From Boswellia sacra (lineage: Eukaryota > Streptophyta > Magnoliopsida > Sapindales > Burseraceae): a stretch of 64,000 nt of DNA. Under the pieces are notes generated by a model. The model ran no database searches, had not been told where the DNA came from, and was given only the letters and a program-made list of their open reading frames with translations. The position numbers and the translations under genes were made by a program. This document shows, in pieces, positions 24,448-56,080 of this stretch. Position 1 is the stretch's first letter, and every line of letters starts with the position of its first letter. The stretch is taken from assembly GCA_013180625.2 (NCBI GenBank), contig SNVD02002434.1:124001-188000 (forward strand). The letters are read 5' to 3'.

Positions 24448-24651
24448 ATGAAAACCACTCTTATTAATTTGATTAAAGTGTTTTTCCTTCTGTGGTGCGT
24501 TTCCATTGCTCATGTCGCTGCTGGAAGTGGAAGGCCTACGCATATGGCTATGGATGCACGTGGACCTCCAAAGAAACCCGGCTCTGATCCCTGCACCTAT
24601 ATCCCCGGAAACCCTCCCGCCAAATGTCCCTCTCCTCCTCGTGCGACTTGA
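24448..24651 (+). CDS. CTNIP/SCREW-like secreted signalling peptide precursor (67 aa)
   Basis: A short intronless gene. Residues 1-25 form a signal peptide (hydrophobic KVFFLLWCVSIAHVAA). A variable pro-region follows, then the C-terminal motif DPCTYIPGNPPAKC with Cys49 and Cys60. CTNIP/SCREW peptides of Arabidopsis are secreted, share a CTNIP-like motif with two conserved cysteines, and act through the LRR receptor kinase HSL3/NUT in defence and water-loss signalling. The family call rests on the motif, size and signal peptide together. The AT-rich leader, with TATA-like sequence near 24340, and the downstream AATAAA-like signal near 24729 fit a small transcribed gene. It is the outermost and most divergent intact member of the cluster, with a basic Pro-rich tail (CPSPPRAT). 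Confidence 0.75.
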   Translation: MKTTLINLIKVFFLLWCVSIAHVAAGSGRPTHMAMDARGPPKKPGSDPCTYIPGNPPAKCPSPPRAT

Positions 24652-24699
24652 AGTTGAATTCCTATACATGCATATGCAGCAGCTCCAGCACCTCCATAT

Positions 24700-26990
24700 A
24701 CAGTAACCTTTTTATTTTATATATTTCAATAAAGTCCAGATAATATGTATGTCTTTGTATTACATGTAAAATAATATGAATAATTTGTATCTCCTGGATA
24801 TGTAGTTGAGTCCATGCTTATGCATGATGATCAACATTAATAATAATAAGCAAAATAATATATTTATATATTAATATATATATGTAGTGAAAATGTATAT
24901 GTTGTATTCGACATACATATCATGGAAATTACCATACAAAAGAAAGATATTTGCGACAACCCTAATCCCCGAGCCAAGCGACGTTGGCCTGTTATCCAAG
25001 TGGAGGCATTAAGGTGATGGAACGGACAATTATTATTATTATTATTATTTTCATCAATTATTAATTTGCATGCTCAGTCACTTCTTAAAACTCTTACGAT
25101 TAATCCTACCGCTCCGACTGAACCATCGTACTTATTTATTTTCCTTCAAAGTATTTTTTTTCATTAAATTAATTTAATTCGCATGTTCTCAGTTCTTAAA
25201 ACTTTTTCTTTATCTTTATTATTATTTTAAAAGGTTGATTTAGTAAACATGCAATGCTAAACCAAAGATGTCTTATAACTAGTTCTATAAATAAACTGAT
25301 CCTCAATTAGACTTGTTTTAATTTGTTTCTCTCTGCTGGCATATGTAGTTGCATAAATACAATAATTAATAAGTCCGAATATATTTAACCCAATCCAACA
25401 ACTTATCTTCTTTCAATCAAAAGTTATAGAAATTAAAATGCAATACTAAACCAAATATGCCTTATAATTAGTTCCTAATATTTATCTTCAATTAATTTAT
25501 CAACTCCTACAACTTGCTTAATTTGTTTCTATCTGCTGCCATATATAGTGGACAATAGAAAAAAGAAAAGAAGTATAGTCAATCGTTATCCTTCGCAGAC
25601 ACTTCGAATACATGCATATATGTTTGCATGTGCTACATGTTTGTAATTGTAAATATGCAATTGATTAATTTTGTAGCCGAGTTAAAGGCCTTTTCCTCGT
25701 CTATTTTTGGATATAATATTAAAAAATTAATATTGTAGTTATAGTAAGCAAATGAATTATAGAAAGAAAGCAATAGAAGTATAGCTTCTTAGGAACATGT
25801 TGGTTCAAGACTTGGTGGATCTCGAATATTATTCTTGCAAATGTGAATGAGGTCAAAATGAGATGAGACATAAAGATGAAGGTGATGTAACAAATATATA
25901 TGCCCCTCAAGTCGCGCCTGCACCTTCCTGATGGTTTCACAATTGGTGTTGTGGTCTGACTTGGCTAATAGGTTGAAAGATCATAATTTTTACTTTTTGG
26001 CCAATTAATCGCTTTCATTTCTTATTCAAAATCAAAATTTTATATTATTATATCTGTGATCAAGTTGTAGAGTAGATCAAAACGTCGTATTCCTTTTGTA
26101 ATCAATTAAATTTGATTCATCCTGGAAGCAGCGTAATATTGCGTCCGTACGAGAAGCCGTATACTATTTTCTTTTGTATGAGATAGGGCTCCCACGTCGA
26201 AATCGGTGATGGAGTAATACAAGTATATAATAGACTTTCCTAACGTAAGTAGCCTATTATATAATACAAATATGAGTATAATTAAAATAAAGAACTCTCC
26301 GCATTAACCACCTTGATGGTCATGTGCAATCCATGGTAATTGGCCACTCTCTTATTTGAAGAACTTCCTAATTACGAGTTGATGAAAGCATCACCTGATC
26401 AAGAGGAAGGCAAGAAGTGGAAATATAAGACAGTCCAAGCCCAAGCTAAAAGGTAAAATGCTTCTATATATATATACCTTTGTTATTGCCATCCATTTAT
26501 CAGCTTCATAACCAATAAATGGTAACTACTGCCTTGGAAATTTGTGTAGGCTGTTGTAATTAGTTCTCTATTCCCTTCAAGGGAAACTTTAATCTGCATT
26601 TTCATCTTTGTGAAACCTGGATATTGTAATAATAAATAGAGCAATTATTTCAGTTATTCTACAATATTGAAGCCTATTGACTTATTTCAACTTATCCTGA
26701 ACGATTAATTTTACTTGAATTAACTGCTATGTTATTATATAACATTAATCTTATTAGGTTGTAATTAGTTTATCTAGTCCTTTTTTTATCCCCTTTTCTC
26801 TGCTGTTGCAGCATGAGAGAGGTTAATAAAAACTAATATTAACGTGGTAATTGTTAAAAAACAATCACATCAGTAGATTTTTATTATGACTTTCACCCTC
26901 ATAATTAGGATTATCAATTTAATTTCGTAAGTTTTGCATGCAAATACATATTTGCAAGTGACTAGACTTTGGATGTGCACGACTAATATG
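24700..26990. other. AT-rich intergenic stretch, no gene seen
   Basis: No supported gene. Short AT runs lie near 24842-24890. A possible exon-like stretch at ~26380-26451 (MKASPDQEEGKKWKYKTVQ, then AAAAG|GTAAAA) is noted only as a possibility. Confidence 0.5.
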
Positions 26991-27025
26991 AACTGATGAA
27001 TATCTACTATGTTTTCACTTCGCAG

Positions 27026-27162
27026 AGATTGTACTTGATGCCTTTCGCTCCATGTCTGATGAAAGTGATCGGACAAATGGCAGATGTGATCCTTGCGTCC
27101 CTGGTCACTGTGATTGGGCGATATGTAGCTCAATCACTCCACCAAGAATCACAAAAGTTTAA
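27026..27162 (+). CDS. Possible small cysteine-rich exon, unknown function
   Basis: After a splice-acceptor-like CGCAG, 27026-27162 reads EIVLDAFRSMSDESDRTNGR and ends CDPCVPGHCDWAIC followed by SSITPPRITKV and TAA. An internal ATG at 27052 would give a 36-aa peptide. Four cysteines in 14 residues, a PGHC motif like that of the neighbouring peptide genes (GNPGHC), and a position inside the cluster make it worth recording. There is no signal peptide and no family I recognise. It could be a last exon, a relic or chance. Confidence 0.3.
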
Positions 27163-27229
27163 CGTCATTTCGCTTCCTTTTTTATGGTTCATTATTAGAC
27201 CACTCTGTTGATCCAAGTATTTGATAGAC

Positions 27230-28460
27230 TTAGGTGGTGTTTATTTCAATCACTTAACATTTTTTAGATCTAAATACTTTTTAAAACTTAATTTACACAA
27301 CTTAATATGATATTTATTTGCTTTTTTAGATACCACTTAAAAAAAGTGGTAAGATAATATTTTACCTTTATTATAACTTTCTTTACCCTTGTTAAAATAT
27401 TAAATGTTTATATTTGTATTTATACAATCTTTTAAAAATTAAATAGTTAATAAAATTAAATCAAAATTCTTTTTTATTTAAATAATTAATATTATATTTC
27501 TTACAACCTTTAAAAAAGAATTATTAACTAAAATTAAATAAAAAATCTTTTTCATTTAAATAGTTAATATTATATTATATAAACTCATATGATATTATTG
27601 TATAACTACTATATCATTAATATTATAAATTTTTAAAATTCATTCCTCCAATTAGACTAAGTTTAAGCCATATCAATTTGTATAAAAAAAATTATAAGAG
27701 AAGTATTTTATCCATTGAAGACCATATTTTGAATCATAAAATATTAATTCTATTAATTAAAGTGTTTTTCATTTCATAAACTTAAACGAAAAAAAAGCTA
27801 ATATGATCTTTTAACTGACAATATTAAATATTAATTTTTTTACTTTAAATTTACACTATTAAATAAAATAAAATGTCCTTAGCAATCTAATAAATAACTT
27901 TTGAAGTTTCAATAAAACTGTCCCTATAATATGTAATAAAATTCTATCAAATATATTGTCTATTTTAAAACTTGCTATTTATAATGATATCAAATTTTTC
28001 AATAGTTATTACTCAACATATTATTAGCTAATTAATTTGAAATATTAATAGAAATAAATAAAAGTTTACCAATTATAAAAAATGTTTATCATATTTTAAT
28101 ATGGTAATTATAAATATTGTAATAAATAATATAACAATTTGATAATAAATATTAAAACAATCACAAATATACCAAAAATTATACCTTTTAATAAATTAAA
28201 ATAATATTCATAAATAAAAATATGATAAAATTTATATTATTTTAATATGTAGGGATATTTATAGAATAAAATTTTTAGCACCTCATTTAGACAATAATTA
28301 TTAGAAAATATGACAAAATTTATATTATTTCAATATGTAGGAATATTTATGGAATAACATTTTTAACACCTGATTTAGACAATAGTGATTAGAAAAAGTG
28401 ATAAATTTTTACTTTTTCAATTAAGTGATTTATCATTTAAAAAAAGTGGAAGAAAGAAAA
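27230..28460. repeat. AT-rich block, possible non-autonomous DNA transposon
   Basis: About 1.2 kb of very AT-rich sequence. The left side reads TTTCAATCACTTAACATTTT and CACTTAAAAAAAGTGG. The right side reads AATTAAGTGATTTATCATTT and then AAAAAAGTGG. The inverted resemblance hints at terminal repeats, but no clean ends or target duplication were found. No coding potential. Confidence 0.35.
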
Positions 28461-28849: not shown

Positions 28850-29032
28850 GGGCAGGGCTGGCTGTTTGCAACCTGGAGAATGTTACCACCCATATCCCAG
28901 ATGTGTTTATGAAACATGTGCTGAATTTCAACTTCCTGGGGAAGGTGACACCTCGTCATCCTAATTCCTGCAGCTACATTCCAGGCAATTCCGGTCACTG
29001 CATGCCCTCCTTACCGCTGAAATTAACGTCCA
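28850..29032 (+). pseudogene. Decayed CTNIP-like peptide gene copy
   Basis: The frame reads [20 protein letters not shown] and then SCSYIPGNSGHC, close to the C-terminus of the 35774 gene (VKVTPPHANPCSYIPGNPGHC). No ATG-initiated signal peptide precedes it: upstream sequence is unrelated and starts after a TTCCAG acceptor-like site. The stop that ends the 35774 peptide is missing, so the frame continues to about 29121. The second Pro before the first Cys is changed to Ser. A chimaeric transcript cannot be excluded, but a dead copy is most likely. Confidence 0.65.
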
Positions 29033-31983: not shown

Positions 31984-32115
31984 TGTACTTTTGTCTGAAA
32001 ACTTTTGTTTTATACGTGGTTATCCTTTCTATGTTGCCATTTGATCTCTGCTAATCATCATGTAGCCGCTGGAAGGGCTATGTTTCTATCCAAGCAGTCG
32101 AATGGCGTAAGTCCT
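31984..32115 (+). pseudogene. 5' fragment of a CTNIP-like peptide gene
   Basis: ATG at 31984 begins a segment aligning with the first third of the 35774 gene: TGTACTTTTGTCTGAAAACT against TGTGTTTTGGTGTGAAAAGT, and TGATCTCTGCTAATCATCAT against TGATCATTTCTGCTAATCACC. One frameshift falls in the signal-peptide region. Homology stops after TCGAATGGC, before any cysteine motif. The upstream 100 bp also resemble those of 35774 (AAATCAAATCATCTTTGCGAA), so a promoter-to-pro-region block was duplicated and then broken. Confidence 0.65.
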
Positions 32116-32589
32116 AATCCAATAAAGGTGTTTGTTTTGTGTATTTGAATTTTTCTTTTTAAAATTTAGTAAGAATATATGTTTGGTTATAGATTTTTTT
32201 TTAAATTTTGAAATTGGTACGACGTTAATATAGATTTAAATATATTAGTAAATGCGTACCTTCTAAAAACAGTTTTCGAAATACATAAACAAAATCTTCT
32301 TTCAATTAATATGAATTTTAATTAGAAGTTTCATGCATGATGTGCAATGCAGTTTGTTGATGCCAAAATCTTGCTTGTCAGAGATGGGGAAGCCAACTGT
32401 CTCCAATAGTATCTTTAGTACTGGAATAGTGTTGTTGTTTCCAGGATAGATTTTCTACTGTTGGGACAGTGTCCTCGGTCTCATAAACATGATATTTAGA
32501 GACTTCTTTACCATAAATAGTATATTAAGATGGTCACCCTACGATACAGAAATACAATTTTGAAATTTTTAATCTATTTAATAATTAGG

Positions 32590-35773: not shown

Positions 35774-36004
35774 ATGTTGTGTTTTGGTGTGAAAAGTAGT
35801 TTTAATGCTGTGGGTGTCCTTGTATGCTGCCTTTTGATCATTTCTGCTAATCACCATCAGGTAGCTGCGGCAAGGTTTATGCATGATCCAGTCAAGCACT
35901 CGAATGGAGCATCGTCTTTGAATCATCGTGATGAAGTTAAGGTTACACCTCCTCATGCGAATCCCTGCAGCTACATTCCAGGCAATCCCGGTCACTGTCC
36001 CTGA
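35774..36004 (+). CDS. CTNIP/SCREW-like secreted signalling peptide precursor (76 aa)
   Basis: An intact single-exon gene. Residues 1-33 are a signal peptide (VGVLVCCLLIISA core, likely cut after VAAA). The pro-region (KHSNGASSLNHRDE) is polar. The C-terminus VTPPHANPCSYIPGNPGHCP has Cys65 and Cys75 and ends one residue after the second Cys. Motif, length and signal peptide match CTNIP/SCREW phytocytokine precursors, which are processed outside the cell and perceived by an LRR receptor kinase. It is the first gene of a tandem unit; 52593 is its duplicate and 28850 and 31984 are broken relatives. It retains its own upstream region with a TATA-like element. Confidence 0.78.
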   Translation: MLCFGVKSSFNAVGVLVCCLLIISANHHQVAAARFMHDPVKHSNGASSLNHRDEVKVTPPHANPCSYIPGNPGHCP

Positions 36005-36690
36005 CCGTTAGTAAAACCTCCAATCTTGTATTTGCGTATGCAGCTTTCCATTTGGCCGATCAATGTTTTTACTCAGCTTTTGTACCTATTCTTACATTCT
36101 TTTGTGAGGTAATATAGATATATATTCTTGAGTTTTGACTCAATTTCAAATGGAGAACGACCATACATTTTTTATTGATCAACTCTTTAAAATTGCTCGT
36201 TTTTTATCAATCATACCTTTGAAAATGATGTTTTGAGAAGTAAAAACAATGATTTAAAAACAAAGGTACGATTTAAAATATATATTTGTTCTCCGTTTAA
36301 AATTAAATATATTTGTTCTCCGTTTAAAATTAAGTCAAAACTCGAAGATACTTATGTGATTATTATATTTTTTTTGTACATTCAAAAACACCTCTTCTAT
36401 TTCCATTTATTCAATAAATCCTACCATTACATTATATTAGCTAAGGAATTAATATTTGATATTTTTTTTTCTTTTAAGAATTTTATGATGTTATATGTGT
36501 ATGTATATTTATCCCTTGATTCTTTGGTTATATTGAATAAAGTTAATCATGTATGGATTCGTTGTATTAATTAATATTTTGTTTGCATTCGTTCTTACAC
36601 ATGGATCATATGAGTTGCTATAACACAAAAAAAAAAAAAAACAGAAGGAAAAGCAAATATTGGGATTGCATAACATTTCTTTTTCAAAAC
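36005..36690. other. 3' flank of the 35774 gene, no gene seen
   Basis: AT-rich. It is duplicated, with divergence, at about 52821-53460. A ~35-bp piece (AAATATATTTGTTCTCCGTTT) is repeated in tandem near 36276-36330. Confidence 0.7.
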
Positions 36691-36693
36691 TTT

Positions 36694-38138
36694 CAGGATA
36701 AATACACTCTTTATTCTCATTTCCTCCCCCCGAGTTTTCAAAAATAGCACAAAACCCCTAACCATGAGTCTCCGTTCCGTCAAAACTGTCATGTCTTTTA
36801 TACCGAAATACAAAATAACTAATTTACCCTTCAAAGCAGGTACTCCAATTTTTTAAAAATATTAAAAACCAAAATCTTTCTCTCTCTTCTATCTCCTCCC
36901 ATTCTCTCTTATCTCTGATTCTTTCTCTTTCCTTCATTCTTATCTTTAATTCTGTGTCTCCTCCATCTCCTCCCTCTTTTTCACTTCGCCATCGGCATTG
37001 CCCCCCTTTTTTTCCTCAAAATTAATGCAAGTCTACCGCAAGCACCGTTAAAGAACTGCTATTCACAAATCAAACAATTATCAGAATGAAAGGAAAAAAA
37101 AAAAATATGTCAGCAACCACAACCATTCTTCTTCATCACCCACATCCATTTTTCATCTCCACAAACTTGTTGAAAGAAGAATAAAATTTCCAGAATCCCC
37201 AAAATACCCAGTACCGTAGTTCTTTTATCTTTTACAAAATTGTTGAAGACAAGAATAAATGAAAAAAAAAAAGAAAAAAAAAGTTGTAAAATCCGATGCA
37301 AACATACCCACTGCAGTTGTTTCCTCGTATCTACAAAATTCTGGAAACAAGAACAAATAAATAAGAAAAAAATAGACTGCAATCAAACAATTGTTTGAAT
37401 CAAATTACAATCCATGATCAAATAGAAGTATTTAAACAAAAAACAAAACGAAACAAATCAATCTAATCGATAGCCAAACCCAACATAAACAGCCAGCTAT
37501 CATCTCCAAACCCAAAAAAAAAGAAGGAACCCTATCAGTCTAGCACCAGCACTTCTCATCACCATCGCCACTGCCCTCCAGCGAAAAACCTCTGCTCTCC
37601 GTCTCTCGATACCTCAAGAAACAACACAACAAACCATCCACCGCTGACTCTACCCATCATAATCTACTTAAGGTACTTAGAAACTCCGCCTATCTAATCA
37701 TTCCTTACAGCAGTATAAACTAACACAATTGAGTTTGGAGAGAGTGAAGGAAGGCATAGTGGCAACTGGCAAGGGTAGATCTCTGCGTATGGAGACGATG
37801 GGTCCTGAACTCAATGAGTTTGAAGAGAGCGTAAGAGGACATCACAGTAGCTGTGACATCAAGATTGGCGGCGTCTCTGTTTTCGATGTTGTCTGTTTGT
37901 AAGGTTTTAAGGTGAGGCAAATAAAGCGGAAGAGAGAACAGGGAAAAAAAGAAAAAAAAAGAAAATTAAATTTCATATTTTATTCAAGATATTTTGCTTG
38001 TATCTTGAAATTACTTTAGTGCCCTCCCTCTTAATGGTTTCACAGAACGGAGAGTAACGGTTGGGGGTTTTATTCTATTTTCGAAAACCCGAGGGGTCGG
38101 AAGTTTCACAAATAAAGGGGGGTTCCGTGATAGTTGCC
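36694..38138. mobile_element. Non-autonomous MULE-like element, ~1.45 kb
   Basis: The left end (CCGAGTTTTCAAAAATAGC then AAAACCCCTAACC and CTCCGTTCCGTCAAAAC) matches in inverted sense the right end, whose reverse complement reads TCGGGTTTTCGAAAATAG, AAAACCCCCAACC and CTCCGTTCTGTGAAACC. The flanks CAAAACTTT (36685-36693) and CAAAATTTA (38139-38147) look like a diverged 9-bp target duplication. The duplicate segment at about 53450-53500 lacks the insert entirely, which confirms the edges within a few bases. The interior has a pyrimidine-rich block near 36880-37000 and no recognisable transposase. Confidence 0.85.
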
Positions 38139-38147
38139 CAAAATTTA

Positions 38148-39371: not shown

Positions 39372-39404
<33 letters not shown>

Positions 39405-39760
39405 TAAAAGATTAAATTAGGATATATAAACTTAAATGAACAACTAAAACAATCACAAACTTAATTTATAAACAAACTTTTCTATATATATATGTCCATA
39501 TAAAGCGACGATATATAGAAAAAGCATATGTACAAAAATCAATTCATTAATAAAGAGTGATGATATATCAATAAATAAGTGATTCCCACCGAATGTAAAA
39601 GTTCTATATATATCACAACTCTTTAAACAAGTGATAATGAATTATATATCCCCTTAAACCTTATACCATTATAACTATTCAAACATCCATGTTTCATTAA
39701 CCATCCATAACATTTTTGTTGCCTATAAGTTGTAAAAGATCCAATGTCATACTGGAAGAT
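38148..39760. other. Duplicated intergenic segment, no gene seen
   Basis: It matches about 53480-55230 in the right unit, including AAGGCACCGCCTCA near 38915 and 54391. An (AT)n run is at ~39378-39401. No gene is supported. Confidence 0.65.
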
Positions 39761-41053: not shown

Positions 41054-41059
41054 TACGTA

Positions 41060-42521: not shown

Positions 42522-42977
42522 TGTTAGGAGATTGAACACTCCCACTGCAGCTCAAATATAAGACAAGAAACAAATTGTTATGCTAGAAATAACAATTTAG
42601 GTGGCACTACCTTCCACAATAAATAAAATAGACAACTTGGGCGGCTCAGCCTTACCATAGTAAATAAATTAAAGGCAATAAAGAAAATAAAGACACAAAA
42701 ATTTAACATGGTAAAACCCTCAATTTGAGGAAAACCTCCACGGGATAAGACCGAAAATATTTTACTACGAAGAAAAATATTACAATCTCTCTCACAATTA
42801 GAATGAAGGAGATAATAATGGAGAAAGAAAAGAAAAGCTTAATACATAAGCTTGGGACAAATATAAAGGGAGGAAGAGGCTTTATTATACAGCCTAGTCT
42901 CCCCCTCTTATACTTTGTTTCCCACCAATGTGGGATTGTGTGAAAGGCAAAAATGCCTTCACACTTCAGACTTCACA
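42522..42977 (-). repeat. 3' LTR of the copia element
   Basis: On the plus strand it reads TGTTAGGAGATTGAACACTC to CTTCACA, so the element is on the minus strand with this as its 3' LTR. TTTTA precedes it. Confidence 0.95.
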
Positions 42978-42992
42978 TTCCCCCACTTGAAG
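42978..42992 (-). other. Polypurine tract of the copia element
   Basis: On the minus strand CTTCAAGTGGGGGAA directly precedes the 3' LTR, the usual plus-strand primer. Confidence 0.85.
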
Positions 42993-43029
42993 ACATTTTT
43001 CCTTTCAGTCTTGTCTCTATACATGCTAC

Positions 43030-45213
43030 TCACGTCTCTAACAGGCCACAAGACGTCCTACACCCGATGAACTTGTTAGCATTGATTGGTTTAGTCAATG
43101 CATCTGCTATGTTGTTCTTCGTGTGGATTTTCTGCATATCCACTATTCCATCTTCCACTACTTCTCGTACATAATGATATTGAACTCCTATGTGCTTCGT
43201 TCTTGAAGGAAAGGCTGGATTCCTTGCAATATGCAAGGCACTCTGACTGTCACAAAATAAAGAAATCTTCTCTTGTTTGTGCCCGAGTTCCTCCAATAAC
43301 CTTTTAATCCAAATAGCTTCCTTACAAGCTTGTGTAGCTGCCATATACTCTGCTTCTGTTGTAGATAGAGCCACAACAGTTTATAGTTTGGATACCCGGC
43401 TCACAGCACCTCCTGCAAGCGTAAACACATAGCCTGTAATGGACTTTCTTTTGTCAAGATCTTCTGCAAAATCTGAATCAACATAGCCCTTGACAACAAA
43501 ATCTGATCCTCCATAGCATAGTGCAGCATCAGAGGTCCCTTTGATGTATCTAAGGATCCTCTTAACAGAACTCCAATGCTCTCTCCCTGGATTAGCCATG
43601 AATCTACTGACCACTCCCATTGCTTGTGCAATGTCTGGTCTTATACAAATCATAGCATACATTAGGCTTCCTACTGCTGATGCATACGGTACTCGAGACA
43701 TTTCCATCCTCTCCACTTCATTGCTAGGACTCATACTTGAGGATAATTTATGATTAACAGGAAATGGGGTGGAAGTTGGCTTACAATCTTGCATGTTGAA
43801 GTGGCGCAAGATTTTCTTCAAGTAGTTCTTTTAAGATAGTCAAATCTTCCTGTTTTTTCTGTCTCGGTGAATTTGCATCCCTAGAATCTTGTTTGCCGGT
43901 CCTAAATCCTTCATTTCAAATCCCATAGCCAATTGTGCCTTTAATTTTTGGACCTGATCTTTGTTAGAGCCTGCTACCAACATATCGTCCACGTACAACA
44001 GTCAAATGACAAAATCTTCCTCAAACCTCTTGTAATACGTACAATGATATGAACTGAGTCTGTTGTACCCAAGGCTGATGATGAATGAATCAAATCTCTT
44101 GTACCAACACCTTGGCGCATGTTTTAAGCCATACAGAGATTTGGTCAACCTGCGAACCAAGTTCTCTTTTCCTTTTTTAATAAAACCTTCCGGTTGGAGC
44201 ATATAAATTTCTTCTTCAAGTTCTCCATGAAGAAACACAGTTTTTACATCTAACTGCTCTAAGTGTAAGTTAAATGTAGCACACATAGCCAAGACTGCTC
44301 GAATTGTTGTAAGTCTTACCATAGGAGAGAATATCTCGTTGAAATCAACTCCTTCTTTCTGAGCATATCCTTTGACCACCAGTCTAGCATGATACCGCTC
44401 CATTTGATCATTCCCATCACGTTTGATCTTGTAGACCCATTTGTTTTCGATGGCTTTTCTTCGATGTGGTAGTGGCACAAGTTCCCATGTCTTGTTTTTG
44501 TCTAAGGCTTCCATCTCTTCATGTATTGCAATCCATAGAGATGCATCAGAACTTTTTATAGCCTCCTGAAAGGTTGAAGGCTCCCCATCTTCTATTAGGA
44601 GATAGTATGCAACATTGCTTGCCATTACATACTCTGAGTGCCAAGAAGGTTCTCTTCTTTCTCGAGTTGATCGATGGACTTCAGGTGCTTCAGACTCAAT
44701 TGGTTCTTGATCATCATGTTCAGGTACTGTTTCAGAAGAAACCGTTTCTTCTTATACTGATACAGTCTCAACATTTTTCTTCGTGCTATCACTTTCTTCA
44801 CATTTAACCATGTCTTCTACAAATAAAACATCCCTACTGATGACAACCTTATGGGCAGTAGGATCCCATAGGCGATACCTCTTTACTCCATCAGCATACC
44901 CCAAGAAGATACATTTCCTGGATTTTGGATCCAGCTTTGTTCTTTCTTGGTCATGATACATCACATAAACAGGACATCCGAAAATATGAAGGGAGGAATA
45001 ATCAGTTGGCTTACTAGTCCACATCTCTATAGGTGCCTTCATCTCAATTGTTGTTGATGGAGACCTATTTATCAAGTAACAGGCTGTGGTGGCTGCTTTT
45101 GTTCAAAATATCTTGGGTAGACCCGCAGTCCTTAGTAATGCTCTCATTCTTTCTGCGAGAGTTCTATTTATCCGCTCTGCCACTCTATTTTGTTGTGGTG
45201 TGTAAGCAACTGT
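43030..45213 (-). pseudogene. copia pol remnant: end of integrase, reverse transcriptase, RNase H
   Basis: The minus strand from the CACTA insertion reads VAYTPQQNRVAERINRT (integrase core), then INRSPSTTIEMKAPIEMW and IFGCPVYVMYHDQERTKLDP. RT follows with NKTWELVPLPHRRKAIENKW, QLDVKTVFLHGELEEEIYM, SLYGLKHAPRCWYKRFD and the catalytic LLYVDDMLVAG. RNase H ends it with SKL, a stop at ~43375-43380, then VALSTTEAEYMAATQACKEA and CDSQSALHIARNP. Further stops occur near 45107, 44000 (just before LLYVDDM), 43865 and 43825. The domain order identifies Ty1/copia, and the wording is close to tobacco Tnt1. Confidence 0.93.
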
Positions 45214-45230
45214 CACTGGTAGAAAAAGGG

Positions 45231-45602
45231 CCTACGGCAACGTGCATTGCACGTTGCGAAAAGGCTTTCGCAACGTGCAGACGCATGTTGCTGTTCTGCA
45301 TGTTGCGAAAAGTCCATGACATTTCGCAACGTGCAATGCACGATGTCGTAAGTTTTTTGCATGTTGCAATTAAAGATTTAGCAACGTGCATTGCACGTTG
45401 CTAAATACCCAACAATTATAACTTTTAGCAACGTGCATTGCACGTTGCTGTATCTAAATTCGTAACGTGCATTGCACGTTGCTGTATCTCAAATAGCAAC
45501 GTGCATTGCACGTTGCTATATATGATTAATAGCAACGGGCAATGCACGTTGCAATATCTGAGGTGAGAATTTTTTGGCAACGTGCATTGCACATTGCCGT
45601 AG
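45231..45602. repeat. Left subterminal palindromic repeats of the CACTA element
   Basis: About nine copies of GCAACGTGCATTGCACGTTGC or close variants, spaced roughly 30-50 bp. In En/Spm elements subterminal repeats bind the TnpA-like protein; here the unit is itself palindromic. Open frames over this block are by-products of the repeat. Confidence 0.93.
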
Positions 45603-46435
45603 GTATAATATATATTTTAAAAATAAATGCATATATATTTTTATAAATTTTTGGGTAATTGTGATTCTTGTTATATTTTACAACTATATACATCATAATA
45701 GAAATGATTACATTCAAGTTCACAATTATATATAACATCAAATTGCATATTTAAATTGAAATGAATATCATTACAATTGTAAAAGTTCAAGTACTGTCTA
45801 TACAACAAGTAACAAGCATCGGAATTGAAAATAAGTAGCCTACATGAACAACAAGAAAATAACAAGTAGTAGATGATTTGAGTGCTTAGAATACCACAAA
45901 TGAAACAAACCATTAGAAATCAAAATATCTTCTCCTCTTTAACACTTTCATCATCTTGAAGATTTTAATAAACACCAGCAAGGCCTACATAAGAAAATAT
46001 TAACATATTAGTCATTTTAAACACAATCTTATGCCAAGTTAAATTTATAAAAAAGAGAAGTTGTCATAACAATCTAAAAAAATTTTGGCAAAGTTTCATC
46101 TATTTATTGGCCTTTCCCAAAAGTACATAACATATCAAAAACACTTCTAATACCAAATCATTTTTCTAGAACAACAATAGGATCTCCAATCCTCGTCAAA
46201 CCAAGCCAACTCAAAACAACATCCAAACAAAAGTCATTACAAATTAGTAAAGTATAATGTACATACCTTAATAGTTGACGCACACGAAAAAACAACTTCC
46301 ACCTATAACACAATAAAATATAGCAATGACACAACTTGTGGACTTAATATATTCACAAAAGTAAAATAAATTTGTATTTACAAATTTATAAACACTTATG
46401 AAGTTAATTAAAAAAATTATAAAGTATTACCTTAT

Positions 46436-46672
46436 TTATATCAATTTGATGCTATTCTTAAACCAAGCAATAGCACTTCCTACTGCTTGATCAAGATATT
46501 CAGCTTCATCCGTTGACCTGTATAATTTAACATTACCTTTGTTTGCATGAACTATCCAAACTTTCCAACAATCCCTTCCTAAAGGCTTGTGATGTACTTT
46601 GGCCTTAGGATCTATACTTGCAATCTTCCCTTCAGCCACAATTTCATCTGGATCATCTGAATACCAATGCAA
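46436..46672 (-). pseudogene. CACTA transposase C-terminal fragment
   Basis: The minus-strand frame of 78 codons contains EGKIASIDPKAKVHHKPLGR, CWKVWIVHANKGNVKLYRS and QAVGSAIAWFKNSIKLI. This layout, ending in a GxAIAW-type motif, resembles the plant transposon C-terminal domain found after CACTA transposase cores. No DDE catalytic core was found in the element, so this is a remnant. Confidence 0.55.
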
Positions 46673-46699
46673 TAAATGACATCTTGAATTTTCACTTGG

Positions 46700-48600
46700 T
46701 ATAATTTGTGGACCACTTTCTTGGAATGACTACAATAAAAAAAAAAGAATATTGTAATGAACAAGTATTATAAATTTTCATTTAAATATTTATTATAAAT
46801 ATAACACAACTATAATGTCCAAGTTTCTCGAATTTTCACGAGCCATGTTAACGAAATTTAGTGCCCCCTTCCTATACTCCTCCGAACATCTACAAGTAAT
46901 ATGACATAATACCTTAAACTTAGTTTAGGGTATTTCAATGAATTAACTAACTCTAATGAATTCTTTAAAATAGGAAAAAACCTTGATTGGTGCATCCATT
47001 GTTTATCCATCTCCAACACCTAATTTAACAATCACTTGGTTATATATGCAGTTATATCATTTGCTTCATCTATAGATACTTATAAGCACTTGCTATAAGA
47101 ATGAAATATAAACTTGACATGTCAAGCACAAAGAGAAAACTCTAATCGAACAAAAATTGAACAACAAAGGAAAAGTGAAAGATGTAAATTACCTCCAAAA
47201 AGCTCAGAAATCTGCAGAAGAGATAGCAGAGAGCACAGGAGCTGCAACAAAAGCAAGAGTTCCAACTATTTTGCTAGAGAGAGCAGCGAGAATGGAACGC
47301 AGAGGAAAGAGCAGAGCTGTAGCAAACACAAATGCGAAAGTTGATTCAAACATCAAAGAACTAAATACTGAAACGTAGAAGATTTAATCAATAAATTTGC
47401 TGAAACTACCAAGGAGTGGAGTTTGAGAAATTACTGAAATGTGATAAGTGATTCAAACCGAGAGAAATTAATAGATTAAATGAAATAAAATAGGTACAAT
47501 GTCTTATTAGAGCTCTAGCAAGAGAAAATAGGTTAACGTTTATTGAATCTGCATATAAATTTAAGTGACTTTCCCATTTCTAAAATTCACTTATGATGTT
47601 AATATCCATTAGCAATGGATGTATAATAATTCAAATTTAGCCAAAATTATGCAAATAGTGCTCAAATTAGGCATATCCTTTATTAGATTTACTTGAAAAT
47701 GTTTTTTTACGATATAAATTAAAAATTCCACTAGAAAAGACATTATGTTCATGGAAATATATATTTAACTAAAAAAATAGATTATTTATAAAATGTTTAA
47801 AGAATGTATTTAACAATTATAAAAGACTCTTTATCTCATCTTTTCAAAATATTGGTTTTAAAAACATATTTTTATAAAATAAAATTTCTAAATCTATCTA
47901 ATTTCCATTTTATAATGAAATATGGATAAATATGTAATTAAAAATTATAAAAAGTACTATTAAGTAAATTAACTTAAATGACTTACTAGGAAAAGGATAA
48001 ACCAGGAAAAATAAAACAAAAAAAACTCAAGCTTAACATCATCTACGTCTCCAAAAACTGGAGGCTCTTGGCACACTAACTAGAAAGAGAGTTGCATTAT
48101 ATCGTAATTGTCACTAATAAGTTCAATAGGCCATTGTAATGAAATCTAAAAAAATGTTATTTAGAAAGGATGAGCAAAAAACAATTCAAAGAATACTAAA
48201 TAGCAAAATAATTCCGAGTCTACCATGACAAGCCTAAGCCTAATCATTTGGTCGCTTCTACCTAACAAAATTTTCATTCTTTATTCGACTTTCAACAAAG
48301 CTTTCAACTGTTTACTTTTCCCCATTTCAATAAAAAGCCATTTCAATACCCCATTTGCAACTACAAGTAAAAAGATGTGTGGCGGTGCTCTATTATTTTC
48401 GATTTCTTTGATCTAAAGCGTGGCTGAAAATTGACTGCACAGGACCTTGACAGCATTTCAGACCTGATGGGCTTGGAATATGCTGAGAAAAACCATACTA
48501 ACAACATGCCTCAAAAGCCTAGCCAACCTAAAAAAAAGTGAGCAATGAGAAGAGTCAAATTAAGAAGTGTAATGCTCAACGAACTCGGAACAACGTGTAC
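46700..48600. other. CACTA interior, no recognised gene
   Basis: AT-rich filler. The overlapping plus-strand frames at 47114-47378 are Lys/Arg/Glu-rich with no family I recognise and lie within one transposon, so I do not call a gene. Confidence 0.5.
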
Positions 48601-48639
48601 AGAGGAACAAGGCAGAGGCCATGGGGCAAGTAAACAGCT

Positions 48640-48845
48640 GAGATCAGAGACGCGGTAACAAAGTCACGCTCGTCTTTGCCCAACCACCATCCCCAGCTCC
48701 AACTGAACCCCCAGCTAAGAAGCGTTGTATATGTCCTGAGTTAACTGGGATGGGTTATCAACCTACCGAACCACCACTACCTTTACCTTACATGGGGTTT
48801 GGTGGTTATCAATACTAGTTTTATCAGCCTAATGCAATGGACAAC
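48640..48845 (+). pseudogene. Proline-rich coding remnant in the CACTA element
   Basis: The plus strand reads VTLVFAQPPSPAPTEPPAKK, RCICPELTGMGYQPTEPPLP, LPYMGFGGYQY, then TAG, and continues FYQPNAMDNELELKV in the same frame. It looks like real coding sequence with one stop, perhaps from a transposon accessory protein. The family is not identified. Confidence 0.4.
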
Positions 48846-49756
48846 GAGTTAGAGCTGAAAGTTGATCTCTCCTGGGGTTGAAGCCATCCAGCAGCGAGGC
48901 CAGTTACAGCTCTGAGTGCGGATCTGTCGATCTGTGGATGCTGGACGATGTCGTTGCGCCTCATCATCATCAACTCCATTAAAGAATGGAAATGAAAACA
49001 AATAGACGAAGAAGAAACGAACAACAACTCTTACAATAGCCAGTAATCCCAAATCCAAACCAAGAAAATATAAGAAAATAACATAATAAAAAAACTAAAG
49101 GTACCTGCATGTAGAGCTAGCTACGGTGTCTTTAGGAAATGTTTCAAGAGTAGCAGCAAAACAAGCGTGACAGAGAAGCTGACTAAGCCCCGTGCTCGTC
49201 CAAGGAGGGAGCTACAGGCGTGACAGAGAAGCTGAAGAGGAGGCAAGCGTGACAGAGAAGGTCCAAGGAGGGAGTTATAAGGTGAGCGTGAGAGGCTAGC
49301 CACTAACTGCATAGAGGAGTTTGGACGCGAGGAAGGTTGACGCTGCAACGGTATAGAGGGAAGCCACCATTTTAGGGTTCAACCATTTTGGGGTTGAATT
49401 AGATCGATTTGGGCCGAGTGAATTGAGTTTGTGGCTAAATTGCACACCATTAAAAGGCCAAAACGTCATCGTTTGGATTTCTCTTTTCAAATAGACTAAC
49501 TAATTTAATTTTTTTATTTATAAATTATTTAATTTTTTATTAGTTATAAGTATATTAATATATTTATTTAACAATAAAATTATATTATTTAATTTTTTAT
49601 TAGTTATATTTTGTTAGCCAAATATTTTATAAATAATTAAATAATTAAATAAAAAAATTAATTACATGTTATTGTTATTTAAAGTTTTATATATTATTAT
49701 ATTTTGTGAATTAATATATAAATTAAATAATAATTTAATTTATTCTTAAGTTTAGG

Positions 49757-49828
49757 TTTTAGCAACGTGCAAGACATGCACGTTGCCAAAAGCTAGATTT
49801 CGCAACGTGCACATTGTGCACGTTGCGA
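49757..49828. repeat. Right subterminal palindromes of the CACTA element
   Basis: Two units, GCAACGTGCAAGACATGCAC and CGCAACGTGCACATTGTGCA (each continuing to GTTGC), share arms with the left-end repeats but have different centres. Confidence 0.85.
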
Positions 49829-49863
49829 ATTACCTGTTGCCGTAAGTCCTTTTTCTTCTAGTG

Positions 49864-51599
49864 TGTCTTCTGCCGTTTCACACCTTCTTTACTGCAAAAT
49901 GCATCAAATTCCTTGTTGCAGAATTCTCTCCCATTATCTATCCTCAAACACTTGATCCTTTTTCCGGATTCAAGTTCCACCTGTGCTTTGAAGGCTTTAA
50001 ATACAGGAAATACATCTAACTCTTTCTTGATGATATATACCCAACATCTCCTAGAATAATCATCCACAAACAATACAAAATAATTTGCTCCTCCTAGGGA
50101 TGTAACCGGTGATTCTCAAACATCAGAATGAATCAAGTCTAAAATATTTTTACTGTTAGCAATAGATCTACTAAAACTCAGCCTATTCTGCTTGCTAATA
50201 ACACAATGCTCACAAAATGGTAAACTTATAGTTTTAATTCGAGGAAGCAGTTTTCGATCCAAGAGAATCTTTAAACCCTTTTCGGACATATGGTCAAGTC
50301 TTCGATGTCATATCATAGACAATTCTTCTCCAGAACTAGCAACTGCTGTTTCTGCCTCTTAAACAGTTTCTCCATGGAGCATGTATAGGTTAGCAGCAAT
50401 CTTTTCTACCTTTATCACCGCAAGCGCGCCTCTGACAACCTTCATGATCCCATTTTTCGTATGGAACTCACATCCGAGGTCATCCAACTGTCCCATCGAT
50501 AGCAAATTTTTCTTCAAGCCAATCAAATGTCGTACATCTTGGATGGATCGAATCGTACCATCAAATATTTTTACTTTGACGGTTCTAATACCAGCAATCT
50601 TTAAGGCATGATCATCACCCATGTACACAGACCCTTCTGAGATAGGCTTGTATTGATAGAACCAATCTCTTTTAGAAGTAATATGCTATGTTGCTGCTGA
50701 ATCAATTAACCATATATCAACAAACCTTTTTCTGCCTTCCGCAACAGTTGTTGCCTTGCTGCATAAGATTTTTCCATCTCCTGAAGTACTTGCTACACAA
50801 CCCTGAGATCCTGACGACTCAGATTCTTTTCCTTTGCTGTTTTCCTCTCCACTCTTCTTAAGATGCCAACACTCGTTTTTCACGTGCCCTTGCTTTCCAC
50901 AATGGTAGCATTTAACAAACTTCCTTCCTTTAGACTTTCCCTTGTTTTGATTGTGACTCCCACTGGAACCACGTTCCCTTGATCTCCCTCTGTTGGCAGA
51001 TAAAGCCTCTGCTTGTTGAGAAGTCATATTCTGTCTTTCCTGTTTTTACGTCTGCTTTCTTCTTCTAAAACAGAAGCCGCAACATCATTAAAGACTAGAG
51101 ATGACTTCATCGAACCATTTGCCAAGTTAAGGATGAGATTATCATATGAATCAGGTAGACCCTGAAGTAGAAGTTCAGCACATTCCTTCTCTTCTATGTT
51201 ATGCTCCATGGTTGAGAGATGGGATAATAACGTCTTCAAAGTATTGATATGTTTAGTTACCGGAGTGGTTTCTGACATACGAAGAGTGTACAACTTCCTT
51301 TTCAAGAAAATTTTGTTGTGTAGAGATTTGGCTTCATACAAGCTTGTCAAAGTATCCCAAATCTCCTTTGCAGAGTTCAATTCTTGAATACTTGATAGCA
51401 TTTCATCTGCAACTACTAGATGTAGACTTGCCATCGCATCACCATCTATCTTCTCCCATTTCTTTTCATCTTGCATACTTTCCGGTCTTCCATCAATTGC
51501 TTCAAGGCAATTTTCTTTTCTCAAGATGGCCTTTATTTTTATTTTCCATAGCCCAAAGTTGTTTCCGTCGAACTTCTCTATCTTGAATTTGGCTGCCAT
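49864..51599 (-). pseudogene. copia gag, protease and start of integrase
   Basis: Gag starts at ATG 51599 (MAAKFKIEKFDGNNFGLWKI, the copia gag/UBN2-type start) and stays open to about 51027. A frame change leads to the zinc knuckle VKCYHCGKQGHVKNECW near 50905-50855 and protease start VDIWLIDSAAT near 50690, where a stop follows. The GAG-pre-integrase segment is seen in GLKKNLLSMGQLDDLGCEFH (near 50500). Integrase is seen in FVDDYSRRCWVYIIKKE and CLRIDNGREFCNKEF (50073-49870). It is cut at 49866 by the CACTA insertion. The upstream leader holds the primer site. Confidence 0.93.
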
Positions 51600-51878
51600 C
51601 TGTCTTGTAGTAAACAGTATCGTATACGTGAACAGTAATAATATTCGTATATGTACACCACTGCTAAACAGTAACCAAGAATAGTAGTAAGTGCCGGTAT
51701 GATTTAATATACACCAGGAAAGCTTCTAGGAAACACTGGAGAGGTCACAAGTGGTCTCACTTAAAACCTAGTCTCCTTAGACTCTTATCGTCTTTTTGAC
51801 AAAGCTTTCCTAGACATGTATATAACCATACAAGTAACCACTCACTGCCCTAACCTTTGGCTCTGACTTTGCAACTTG

Positions 51879-51890
51879 GCTCTGATACCA
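51879..51890 (-). other. Primer binding site of the copia element
   Basis: The minus strand reads TGGTATCAGAGC one base inside the 5' LTR, the complement of plant initiator-methionine tRNA. Confidence 0.93.
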
Positions 51891-51891
51891 G

Positions 51892-52346
51892 TGTTAGGAG
51901 ATTGAACACTCCCACCACAGCTCAAATATAAGACAAGAAACAAATTGTTATGTTAGAAATAACAATTTGGGTGGCACTGTCTTCCACAATAAATAAAATA
52001 GACAACTTGGGTGGCTCAGCCTTACCATAGTAAATAAATTAAAGGCATTAAAGAAAATAAAGACACAAAAATTTAACGTGGTAAAACCCTCAATTTGAGG
52101 GAAACTTCCACAGGATAAGACCGAAAATATTTTACTATGAAGAAAAATATTACAATCTCTCTCACAATTAGAATGGAGGAGATAACAAGGAGAAAGAAGA
52201 GAAAAGCTTAATACATAAGTTTGGGACAAATATAAGGGGAGGAGGAGGCTTCATTATATAGCCTAGCCTCCCCCTCTTACACTTTGTTTCCCACCAATGT
52301 GGGATTGTGTGAACGGCAAAAATGCCTTCACACTTCACACTTCACA
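51892..52346 (-). repeat. 5' LTR of the copia element
   Basis: On the plus strand it reads TGTTAGGAGATTG to TTCACA, pairing with 42522-42977. TTTTA follows at 52347-52351. Confidence 0.95.
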
Positions 52347-52592: not shown

Positions 52593-52820
52593 ATGTGTTT
52601 TGGTATGAAAAGTAGTTTTAATGTTGTGGGCAGTATCCTCTTATGCTGCCTTTTGATCATTTCTGCTAATCATGAAGTAACTGCTGCAAGGGTTATGCAT
52701 CTAGTCAAGCACTCGAATGGAGCGTCGTCTTTGAATCAAGTTAAGGTGACACCTCCTTATGCGAATCCTTGCAGCCACATCCCAGGCAATTCCGGTCGCT
52801 GTGAACCTAATCTTCACTAA
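52593..52820 (+). CDS. CTNIP/SCREW-like secreted signalling peptide precursor (75 aa)
   Basis: An intact duplicate of the 35774 gene. The signal peptide is residues 1-32 (VGSILLCCLLIISAN core). The pro-region KHSNGASSLNQ is shortened. The C-terminus VTPPYANPCSHIPGNSGRC has Cys60 and Cys70, followed by EPNLH. Tyr is replaced by His in the CxxIP motif and the tail is four residues longer than in 35774. The sequence directly upstream is the end of the left repeat unit, not the upstream region of 35774, so its promoter context differs and it may be silent or differently expressed. The family call is as for 35774. Confidence 0.72.
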   Translation: MCFGMKSSFNVVGSILLCCLLIISANHEVTAARVMHLVKHSNGASSLNQVKVTPPYANPCSHIPGNSGRCEPNLH

Positions 52821-55108
52821 AACCTTCATTCTTGTATTTGGCCGATCAATGTTTGCTCGCTCTCTTTCCTACTTTTTGCATTCTTTCGTGGGACAATATC
52901 ATAAGTACATTTGAATTTTGATTTAATTTCAAGCGGAGAATAATTGTACATTTTTTATCAATCATATCTGTGAAGTTGTTTATTTTTTATCAATTGCACC
53001 CTAAAAATTATATTTTAAAAGGTTAAAATGATGATTTGAATGCAACTTTAAGGGTGTATTAATGAAAAATACATAATCATTCTCCGTTTGAAATTAAGTA
53101 AAAAAAATAAAGGATATTGACTAATTATCCCTTTTTTTTTGTATATTCCATAGCACCTCTTCTATTTCCATTTTTTCAATAAATTCCACCATTATATTAT
53201 ATTAGCTAAGCAATGAATATTTGATATTTATTTTTTTCTTGTAAGAATTTTATGATGTCACATATGTATGTAGATTTATCTCTTGATTCTTTGATTATAT
53301 TGAATAAAGAAGTTAATTATACATGGATTCTTTGTATCAATTAATATTTTGTTTACATTCGTTCTTATACAGATGGATCCTGCTGTGAGTCTCTGTAACA
53401 ACACAAAAAATACGGAATGAAAAACAAATATTGGGATTGCATATATAACTTTTCTTTTTCAAAATTTAAATTAAGGAATTTAATTGCAACGTTGGAACGT
53501 TACTTTGACATATCAAAATCAGGATCAAAATGATTTGTTAGCGTATGATCTCAACGCCTATTCGACCAACGTCAACATATAAAAATTAATTTATTAACCA
53601 GGTTAGACTGATAATGATAAGCAATTGATAGATAAGATTGAGCCTGACGTTGGACTTATTTCAACGCCTATGTTTGTAGTTATTGAATACGTGGCTGTGA
53701 TTGTACGTGCAATATTATATTGCAGCTTGAAAACCTTTCCTCGCTATATTTAATTACCCAAATTAAAATATTTGAAGCACAAAAGGAAAAGAAAAAGGAA
53801 AGAAGTCTATATTCCTTCCTTCTGTCTCCCTTAACCAGAGGAAAATTTCGTGGAATATCTCTATTAATGTGGACCATTAATCAATTTTCTTATTACATTA
53901 ATGAATGAATAGTCTTAATTAATATATCTCAAAGGGATACATATTAAGATCTTAAAACAATATAATTTTTATTATAAAAATAATTAATTTTTTCAAAAAT
54001 TATATTCAATTGATTCAATAATTTTTATAGAAAGTACTCAATTTTAAAATTTTAACATGTATCAAATTAATATTTAGATAATCTTGATCTTTGTAATTTT
54101 GTCATTTGAATTTGGTGAATTGCAACATATATAAAATTAATTAATTAATTAATTTTTTCACTTTTTGATCAAAAAATTAATTAATTAATTTTTTTTTTCA
54201 CTTTTTGATCAAAAAGAACTATCTGTTGCCTGTAAAGTAAATGATTTATCAACAAGACGACAATGAAATATCCTTTTTGGTCAAGTCAACTCGGTTGATC
54301 TCACTAGTAATAAAGAAATATTATATTACAGAGATACTAGGCGTGTGAAGTTACGCAGTGATGACGAGTCAAGAAAAAAGCAGAGAAACAAGGCACCGCC
54401 TCACGGCCAAAGTGGAGGGCTAGGGTGCAGCCAAGGCGCTTCTCACAGACGGCGTCCCTACCCGGGGTGGCAAATAATGAAATTAATGTGTTTTAATTTT
54501 CTCATGACTTCGCATGCCTAGATTCACTTTCATCGCGTTTTCTTCTTCTTTTCTTCGCCGAAAGTAGTAGTAGTAGTAGAAGTATTGCCATTGCATTTGC
54601 ATTGCACGAAGGCTTCTCTGCAGACTCAACAGTAGAATATCCATCGCGATTAAAACATGATATTCCTTGCTTCTTTCTCTCTCCATCTTTAATTAATTCA
54701 GCATATTTACGTCTACATAAATGCAGATGCAGGGCTTTGACATTAATTAATTGCGTGTTGCTGCAGTCTCTCGCTCCCACTTTTCTTGTTGCAATTTGCA
54801 AATGCTTCTTTCTCCCTCTTTATGCATACCTGCTTGCCAAGAGATTCATTTTCGAATAATATGTATACAAGATTAAACTACGATATATACATAAGCTTAA
54901 ATGAAGAAATAAAACAAAAATAATACTTGAGTTACAAACTTAATTTATATACAAACTCTTATATAATATATTATATCCTATGCCCATATACAAACTCTTC
55001 ATTAATTAAGTTGATTTTTTTATGATATACCAATAAATGAGTGATTTCTCACATGGTGTAATATTAAGTTGTATATATATATATAAGTAATTGTCATTTG
55101 TTTAAAAA

Positions 55109-55143
<35 letters not shown>

Positions 55144-55257
55144 TGACTGTTAAAACATCCTTGTATTACTAACCATACATAACACATTTTGTTGCCCATA
55201 GGTAGTATAATTTGTAAAAGCTCCAATGTCACACTAGAAGATGTACATGTGTGAGTG

Positions 55258-55309
<52 letters not shown>

Positions 55310-55620
55310 GACAAGGAGTGGTGCCTTATCAATTAGTGCCAAAAAAACAAAACACATTCCATATTTCCTTCTTTTGTAAATATATCAAAAGACATTAAGG
55401 CTCTGTTCGTTTATGAATTCAAATCGTGTTTTCTGTGCTACACATTTTCCAACGCAATTTATATTCAATCTCAACCACATATCTTTTTCAAAATTCAAAA
55501 TAATTCAAAATCAACCACATATTCTTAAATTCAACTGAATACAAAAATAACCGATTCATAAACGAACACATCCCCTCGTTTTGGTAGCTTTTTTTTGCCA
55601 CGGACGACATACGTTCGTTT
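52821..55620. other. Intergenic segment of the right repeat unit, no gene seen
   Basis: It corresponds to 36005-40640 without the MULE and MITE inserts. AT microsatellites lie at ~55073-55084, 55111-55139 and 55269-55307. Confidence 0.7.
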
Positions 55621-55628
55621 CAGCAATT

Positions 55629-55641
55629 TGTATATATATAA
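55629..55641 (+). promoter_or_regulatory. Possible TATA box of the 55790 peptide gene
   Basis: GTATATATATAAC lies about 150 bp before the start codon. The broken duplicate at 40773 has a similar CATATATATAAG near 40636. Confidence 0.45.
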
Positions 55642-55789
55642 CACACACTCCCATCAAATCCCTTGAACTAAGCCTTCTTATCCTTCATTAATAACGCATT
55701 TTCTTCTCCATTAAGCTTCCAAACCATCGTGCTAATCACATCATTCAACTTAATCTTCTCCTCATCTCTGTCATCTCATCCCAACAAAA

Positions 55790-56080
55790 ATGTTCTCTTG
55801 GATAATGAGAACACTTTTTAACACGATCAAGCTACTTATCCTTCTCTTTTGCCTTTTGAATATTACTACTAATATTTCTCATCATATTGTACTTGCTGCA
55901 AGGCCAGGTCCTTCTATGGATACTGCTGCCATCAAGAACTCGTATCTAGCGTCTCTTGATGGTGAAGTCAATAGGTCGTCTCCAGTGACACCTCCTCGTC
56001 CTAATCCCTGCACCAACATCCCAATTAAACCTGGCACTCCACCTCCCCTAGCTGGCCACTGCGACCCTCATCATGGCTGA
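55790..56080 (+). CDS. CTNIP/SCREW-like secreted signalling peptide precursor (96 aa), canonical CTNIP motif
   Basis: The longest intact member. Residues 1-37 are a signal peptide (LLILLFCLLNITT core, cut near LAA). The pro-region contains RPGPSMDTAAIK and SLDGEVNRSS. The C-terminus reads VTPPRPNPCTNIPIKPG, then TPPPLAGHCDPHHG, with Cys74 and Cys91. The literal CTNIP string with two cysteines and flanking Pro-rich sequence is the signature of the CTNIP/SCREW family, secreted peptides sensed by HSL3/NUT. Its 16-residue inter-cysteine spacing is longer than the 9-10 of its neighbours. The duplicate at 40773 is broken, so this is the only working copy of the subtype here. Confidence 0.82.
   Translation: MFSWIMRTLFNTIKLLILLFCLLNITTNISHHIVLAARPGPSMDTAAIKNSYLASLDGEVNRSSPVTPPRPNPCTNIPIKPGTPPPLAGHCDPHHG

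Follow-up and report, generated by a model that had tools for sequence, protein, structure and literature searches.

The window analysed here, a stretch of 64,000 nucleotides of the Boswellia sacra genome (assembly GCA_013180625.2; positions 124,001 to 188,000 of contig SNVD02002434.1, hereafter C1194), contains a small gene in seven copies, all on the + strand and spread from 24.4 to 56.1 kb; four of the copies are open and three broken (c1 to c7; Table 1). Very probably, these copies derive from a duplicated array and code for small secreted CTNIP/SCREW-family precursors whose peptides act via the receptor HSL3/NUT; the array genes are new members of an already known family. The initial annotation had described seven related copies, four intact and three broken, with variable motifs and with 9, 10 or 16 residues between two cysteines (Cys), and had assigned them to CTNIP/SCREW. 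All seven were found at those places and on the same strand, the motifs and spacings were reproduced, and the family assignment is supported both by matches of six of the seven copies to a profile of public proteins and by matches to ligands bound to HSL3.

Structure of the encoded precursors

The proteins encoded by the four intact copies are 67-96 amino acids (aa) long, thus all under 150 aa. Each of the four has a hydrophobic N-terminal core (mean of 2.2-2.8 over 15 residues on the Kyte-Doolittle scale), and this segment is predicted from its hydrophobicity to be a signal peptide. The C-[TS]-x-I-P core is present in six of the seven copies; two C-terminal Cys are found in all the intact copies and in c2, c5 has lost the second one, and the corresponding half of the gene is absent from c3. 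This layout is shared with the Arabidopsis CTNIP/SCREW precursors, which are short and combine an N-terminal hydrophobic segment with a C-terminal C-x-x-I-P...C motif; a further common feature is an Arg directly past the signal peptide, with Pro as the next residue in c1, c7 and 9w1s_C, an Arabidopsis ligand chain discussed below. The precursor layout of the array is also found in public proteins such as P0004, P0028 (Prunus), P0023 (Salix) and P0046 (Carya), and in another B. sacra gene, located at 293 kb of contig C4927.

Family assignment

Three alignments were used: A1, with the four window proteins; A2, with copies from the same genome; and A3, a wider alignment of both own and public sequences. 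A2 matched 90 public proteins at E values up to 0.01, and A3 again 90; the organisms named among these matches are all plants, many rows being without a name. Inspection of 66 of the 144 public proteins revealed mostly short precursors with the C-terminal two-Cys motif, the exceptions being a few fused or truncated models and P0081, which is without the cysteines. The initial annotation had proposed loss of the two Cys in orthologues as evidence against its assignment; most of these 66 relatives retain both, a result that holds for the family rather than for one-to-one orthologues, and exact orthologues of the window copies were not found in a close relative.

A public-only profile was then built on 133 of the 144 public proteins, leaving out seven taken for fused or truncated models and four, whose sequences were not read, because of their length. 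The profile search, for which the initial annotation had considered a lack of any significant match as a refutation, gave significant E values for c1 (3.8e-4), c2 (6.2e-7), c4 (2.8e-12), c5 (1.6e-8), c6 (1e-12) and c7 (1.5e-9); only c3 was missed, and it reached 0.21 with the A3 profile. The next best place in the window scored 0.46, and the best one in five shuffled windows 0.079.

Matches to structures point in the same direction. Among the 177,635 sequences of the PDB search set, the A3 profile retrieved 9w1s_C (E 6.6e-10) and 9wum_B (1.7e-5), and the A2 profile, made from this genome, retrieved the same two chains (2.3e-6 and 0.0017), followed by a third match at 0.39; the public-only profile aligned with them at 47.7 and 29.2 bits, covering 42 of the 43 residues of the first and all 23 of the second. 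Entries 9w1s and 9wum each hold AT5G25930 and a peptide chain with the CTNIP motif, and AT5G25930 is HSL3 (PMC13056886). In the public set, the Brassica carinata protein P0139 has Cys at 58 and 68, which are the positions mutated in AtCTNIP4 (Rhodes et al. 2022, PMC9191895). CTNIPs are induced by stress, HSL3 binding and activity require both cysteines, and for CTNIP4 a peptide of the last 23 residues is sufficient (PMC9191895).

Several observations weigh against this assignment. The public proteins of the profile were collected with alignments that hold the window copies, so that the test is not fully independent, and A1 alone did not match the two ligand chains significantly (E 0.32 and 0.82); they nevertheless ranked first and second in the PDB set, with an unrelated third at 1.3. 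Searched by itself as a single sequence, c7 had no public relative with an E value of 1 or lower. The "confident" CTNIP set defined in PMC9191895 requires 9-11 residues between the cysteines; c1 (10), c4 (9) and c6 (9) fall inside this filter and c7, whose 16-residue loop sets it apart from the Arabidopsis CTNIPs, falls outside. Other differences from Arabidopsis are DPC or NPC in the window copies instead of NGC in the two ligand chains, and Tyr or His in place of Asn in three of the four window proteins (Ser-Tyr, Ser-His or Thr-Tyr instead of Thr-Asn). Finally, the lack of a c4-type 5' flank, described below, weakens c6 as a fourth working gene.

A wholly different explanation, namely chance open frames in repetitive DNA, would be compatible with the transposon-rich region and with short proteins for which no Pfam model was found (the public relative P0091 carries the listed accession PF27884.1, a family that the Pfam scan of P0091 did not return). 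It is, however, refuted by E values down to 1e-12 with the 133-protein public profile, by the matches to HSL3-bound ligands and by the motif counts. Indeed, PC[TS]xIP occurs five times in the six frames of the window, always inside the copies, against a mean of 0.075 and a maximum of 1 in 40 first-order Markov shuffles of the window; the looser C[TS]xIP occurs eight times, six of them inside the copies, with a mean of 1.5 and a maximum of 5 in the shuffles.

Duplication history of the window copies

Two of the intact copies, c4 and c6, belong to larger duplicated units, each followed by a second copy (c5 and c7, respectively). DNA identity between the units is 75% for 35778-36692 and 52594-53467, 79-80% for 38142-38761 and parts of 53.5-54.0 kb, and 80% and 84% for 40637-41727 and 41907-42521, both aligned with 55632-57329. 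The relatedness extends to the remaining copies: the 3' flank of c2 (29152-29213) shows homology to the corresponding flanks of c4 and c6, and in the ligand tree c1 is closest to an intact gene located at C1194:121.8 kb (support 99/88), 2 kb upstream of the window. As judged from these alignments, tandem and segmental duplications gave rise to the window copies inside a larger array that is specific to the lineage, a process that also produced pseudogenes.

Homology between c4 and c6 starts at 35778 and 52594, respectively; the preceding stretch at 52347-52587, with a 71-bp internal repeat, matches the unit tail at 57325-57508. The c6 start codon is thus placed right at the junction of the duplication, and c6 has none of the sequence that flanks c4 on the 5' side. 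Unit A is interrupted near its end by a Copia retrotransposon with two long terminal repeats (LTRs), which are 94% identical and have TTTTA at both outer sides; its gag domain is found at 51.0-51.7 kb and RVT_2 at 44.0-44.8 kb. The insertion is probably younger than the duplication of the unit, the copies of which differ by 16-25%.

Table 1. Members of the gene family and associated duplicated and inserted elements (positions in the window)
Feature	Position	Strand	Description	Residues between Cys
c1	24448..24651	+	intact CTNIP-type precursor, 67 aa, CTYIPGNPPAKC, PCTYIPGNPPAKC	10
c2	28942..29001	+	broken, 3' (peptide) half only, CSYIPGNSGHC; tblastn E 1.4e-8 with c4	
c3	32029..32130	+	broken, 5' (signal-peptide) half only; tblastn E 4.4e-7 and blastn 73.7%, both with c6	
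c4	35774..36004	+	intact, 76 aa, PCSYIPGNPGHC, CSYIPGNPGHC	9
c5	40773..41053	+	broken; frameshift in signal peptide; altered 3' end, second Cys lost; NPCTNIPIKPG retained	
c6	52593..52820	+	open frame, 75 aa, PCSHIPGNSGRC, CSHIPGNSGRC	9
c7	55790..56080	+	intact, 96 aa, CTNIPIKPGTPPPLAGHC, PCTNIPIKPGTPPPLAGHC	16
Unit A (c4 and c5)	35778..42521	+	duplicated unit; tail resumes at ~52347-52593, past the Copia insertion	
Unit B (c6 and c7)	52594..57508	+	tandem copy of unit A	
Copia LTR retrotransposon	42522..52346	-	inside unit A; LTRs 42522-42979 and 51892-52346	

By reading of the sequence, c3, whose annotated extent is 31978-32130, also has a frameshift near its start. The breakpoints of c2 and c3 fall in the same codon region, but the order of the two relics on the strand is the reverse of that in a gene. 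Their origin as the two halves of one gene split by a simple insertion was considered and rejected, the 3' half lying upstream of the 5' half.

Other mobile elements are present in the window. An LTR-like stretch in inverted orientation (61888-62341) is 89-90% related to the Copia LTRs. Retroelement domains, which we take to be Ty3-type, are located at 3.4-5.2 kb, and a MULE transposase at 18.8-20.5 kb; beside the latter, at 20853-21210, there is a tandem array of short units (TGGAGAAAGGGTCGTTTTGCACGACCCTT-like) with internal inverted symmetry. Frames with DUF1985 and Peptidase_C48 (Ulp1-like) domains are found at 14876-17175; this pairing occurs in plant transposons.

The array beyond the window

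In the whole genome (638.6 Mb in 7431 contigs), the window copies belong to an array of about 148 kb, at 60.5-208.2 kb of C1194, comprising nine intact open reading frames (ORFs) and some 13 fragments, every one of them in + orientation; for the rest of the contig, beyond 50-238 kb, coverage was by single-protein searches with c7, c4 and a C4927 protein. The intact ORFs are located at 85.9, 88.9, 105.9, 112.8 and 121.8 kb, in addition to c1, c4, c6 and c7. Four fragments are weak even with a profile that contains own copies: those at 60.5 kb (E 0.023), 109.0 kb (0.002) and 112.2 kb (0.039), and c3, with the value given above. Such a dense one-strand array differs from the situation in Arabidopsis, where five CTNIP genes in all (CTNIP1-5) are reported (PMC9191895).

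Family members were also found on other contigs. C7308 has an intact CTNIP-type gene at 422.7 kb, and C4927 has three, at 277, 293 and 309 kb. A second group occupies C3431:58-174 kb, with six places, five of them on the - strand; three have E values of 0.001-0.017 and three of 0.1-0.9, and three are open frames with CTMIPGRKGRKC. Broken or weak places are also present on C3848, C5300, C806 and C233; one more locus (L031), which gave the impression of non-plant DNA, was left out of the family count.

A ligand tree was built with 16 own and 33 public proteins, and its bootstrap had not settled; the 105.9-kb protein was cut at HG, omitting a tail of ~15 residues, for the tree and for the analysis of Cys spacing and hydrophobicity. 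The C1194 genes form one branch with the C7308 gene (89/87, not starred by the program), apart from the clade formed by short proteins of CTNIP type from other plants. The adjoining branch consists of the C4927:293 kb gene and P0004 (84/79, also not starred), and the C4927:277 kb gene groups with Xanthoceras and Pistacia proteins (96/88). As far as this tree can indicate, the array has therefore most likely arisen by the lineage-specific expansion of a single CTNIP branch.

Most of the window copies could instead be unexpressed leftovers of a birth-and-death process, with only one or two genes of the array at work. This explanation, which we consider rather unlikely, finds its basis in the proportion of broken or partial copies (three of seven in the window, about 13 of 22 on the contig), in the absence from c6 of the 5' flank of its paralogue and in dN/dS values (ratios of nonsynonymous to synonymous divergence, dN and dS) near 0.5, which also fit partly relaxed copies. 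Conversely, the four open frames retain both the hydrophobic start and the two Cys. TATAWA words, located upstream of c1 (107 bp), c4 (82 bp) and c7 (159 bp), are a weak argument on the same side, being common in AT-rich DNA; indeed, they decide nothing on function, since the broken c5 (at 135 bp) and the junction-borne c6 (at 112 and 41 bp) have them upstream as well.

HSL3-type receptors

A search with the AtHSL3 ectodomain, taken from the PDB alignment, identified ten full-length places in the genome, with 53-59% identity and 639-730 bits, and one partial place at 53%; all the other scored places are at or below 42% identity and 420 bits. Scoring covered 75 of 2482 candidates, so that these counts are lower bounds. 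Six of the ten places lie within 135 kb, on C5674:5,173,516-5,308,090, together with the partial one, and one of the six has a shorter open frame (697 aa, compared to 889-929); the others are located on C878, C2972 (two) and C5928. The C5928 receptor is perhaps an allele of the one at C5674:5,186 kb, as its short branch suggests.

A receptor tree was built with 13 of the 75 scored places and three Arabidopsis receptors; in it, all ten HSL3-type places join AtHSL3 with 100/100 support, apart from HAE and HSL1; one own gene groups with AtHAE (97/92) and one with AtHSL1 (99/98), and the long-branch warning of the program concerns the thirteenth, more distant gene. As judged from these searches, this genome has multiplied its receptor genes as well as its ligand genes.

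The ages of the two expansions were compared by dS. Among the ligands, dS is 0.20 for c4/c6 and 0.21 for c5/c7, and 0.43-0.74 for five older pairs; among the receptor ectodomains it is 0.18-0.43 (21 pairs, from seven of the ten receptors). By this crude clock, the two expansions overlap in time. A more recent ligand pair is formed by the 88.9- and 112.8-kb genes (dS 0.09, dN/dS 0.12). Gene-average dN/dS is below 1 on both sides: 0.56 for c4/c6, 0.49 for c7 compared with the open rest of c5, and 0.42-0.73 over these two and the five older pairs; 0.23-0.37 for the receptor ectodomains and 0.21-0.60 for the kinase parts (15 pairs). Gene-wide positive selection on the ligands (0.12-0.73 over eight pairs) and positive selection on the receptor ectodomains, over the 21 pairs, are both unsupported.

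The array peptides might descend from CTNIPs and, through a changed inter-Cys loop, bind some other receptor or antagonise HSL3. The motif and loop indeed differ among the window copies (CSYIP, CSHIP, the 16-residue loop), the array is a lineage-specific branch of the tree (89/87), and CTNIP recognition was species-specific in the tests described in PMC9191895. However, the genome also carries an amplified set of HSL3 genes, as expected for ligands that still use HSL3, and both Cys are retained in all four intact window copies; such re-targeting is considered rather unlikely.

For ligands that still act via HSL3, the most likely case, the mechanism can be outlined by analogy with the rest of the family. 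The N-terminal signal peptide would direct the precursor into secretion; its C-terminal part, some 20-45 residues with a disulphide between the two Cys, would be freed outside the cell as a peptide and bind the leucine-rich-repeat ectodomain of one or more HSL3/NUT receptor kinases. The bound receptor would then recruit a BAK1-type co-receptor, leading to calcium, reactive oxygen species, mitogen-activated protein kinase and transcriptional stress outputs; expression of the genes themselves would be expected under stress.

In Poaceae, HSL3 is reported to be expanded in the absence of clear CTNIPs (PMC9191895). A weak match of the A3 profile (E 7.3) is TaNNS-C, chain C of PDB entry 9uob (NGCTNNPKHPPGGKC), which has CTNNP rather than CTNIP; chain A of the same entry is named protein kinase domain-containing protein. 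If TaNNS-C is from wheat, as judged by its name alone, it may be relevant to the report that grasses are without clear CTNIPs.

A putative multi-peptide precursor

The locus at C1194:105870-107215 has a peculiar organization: downstream of one complete precursor there are four further units, each of them exactly 150 bp long and with no indel in six pairwise comparisons. The four gaps that separate these parts (127, 126, 124 and 107 bp) start with GT, end with AG and are all in one phase, the first having its GT at 106132 and its AG at 106258; these intron-like gaps show 1-20 gap positions per pair. If the four gaps were spliced, the frame would be open through five CTNIP-type units, two of which are without the second Cys, one of these having CTNAP; a sixth, partial unit has CGG where the other units have CAG. 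The locus could then encode a multi-peptide precursor generated by amplification of a 150-bp peptide-bearing exon, a model that we consider improbable. Several points argue against it: between units, exon-like parts are no more similar than intron-like ones (84-90% for both), six unit pairs have dN/dS values of 0.35-0.83, the simple TTTA-type repeats of the gaps gain indels easily, and a tandemly repeated gene fragment would have much the same appearance.

Implications

Stomata, root growth and stress responses have all been linked to signalling through CTNIP/SCREW and HSL3 (PMC9191895, PMC13056886), and the co-evolution of receptor and ligand has been indicated as a question that the CTNIP/HSL3 pair can open (PMC9191895). 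In the literature searched, which for PMC9191895 was the text other than Figure 4b and the supplements, no report was found of a CTNIP array or of a joint CTNIP-HSL3 expansion; large counts of CTNIP or HSL3 genes elsewhere may already be in print. More than 40% of the surveyed CTNIPs were without annotation, according to PMC9191895, so that many genes of this kind escape annotation.

B. sacra, whose array has nine intact ligand ORFs and whose HSL3 receptors number about ten, offers a natural ligand-by-receptor matrix. As a speculative and unlikely extension, the CTNIP-HSL3 module may have been amplified as a whole, giving rise to partly private signalling channels in which the odd loops would act as specificity determinants, with one locus perhaps producing a multi-peptide precursor. 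A five-unit CTNIP precursor, if spliced, would represent a new way of making this hormone.

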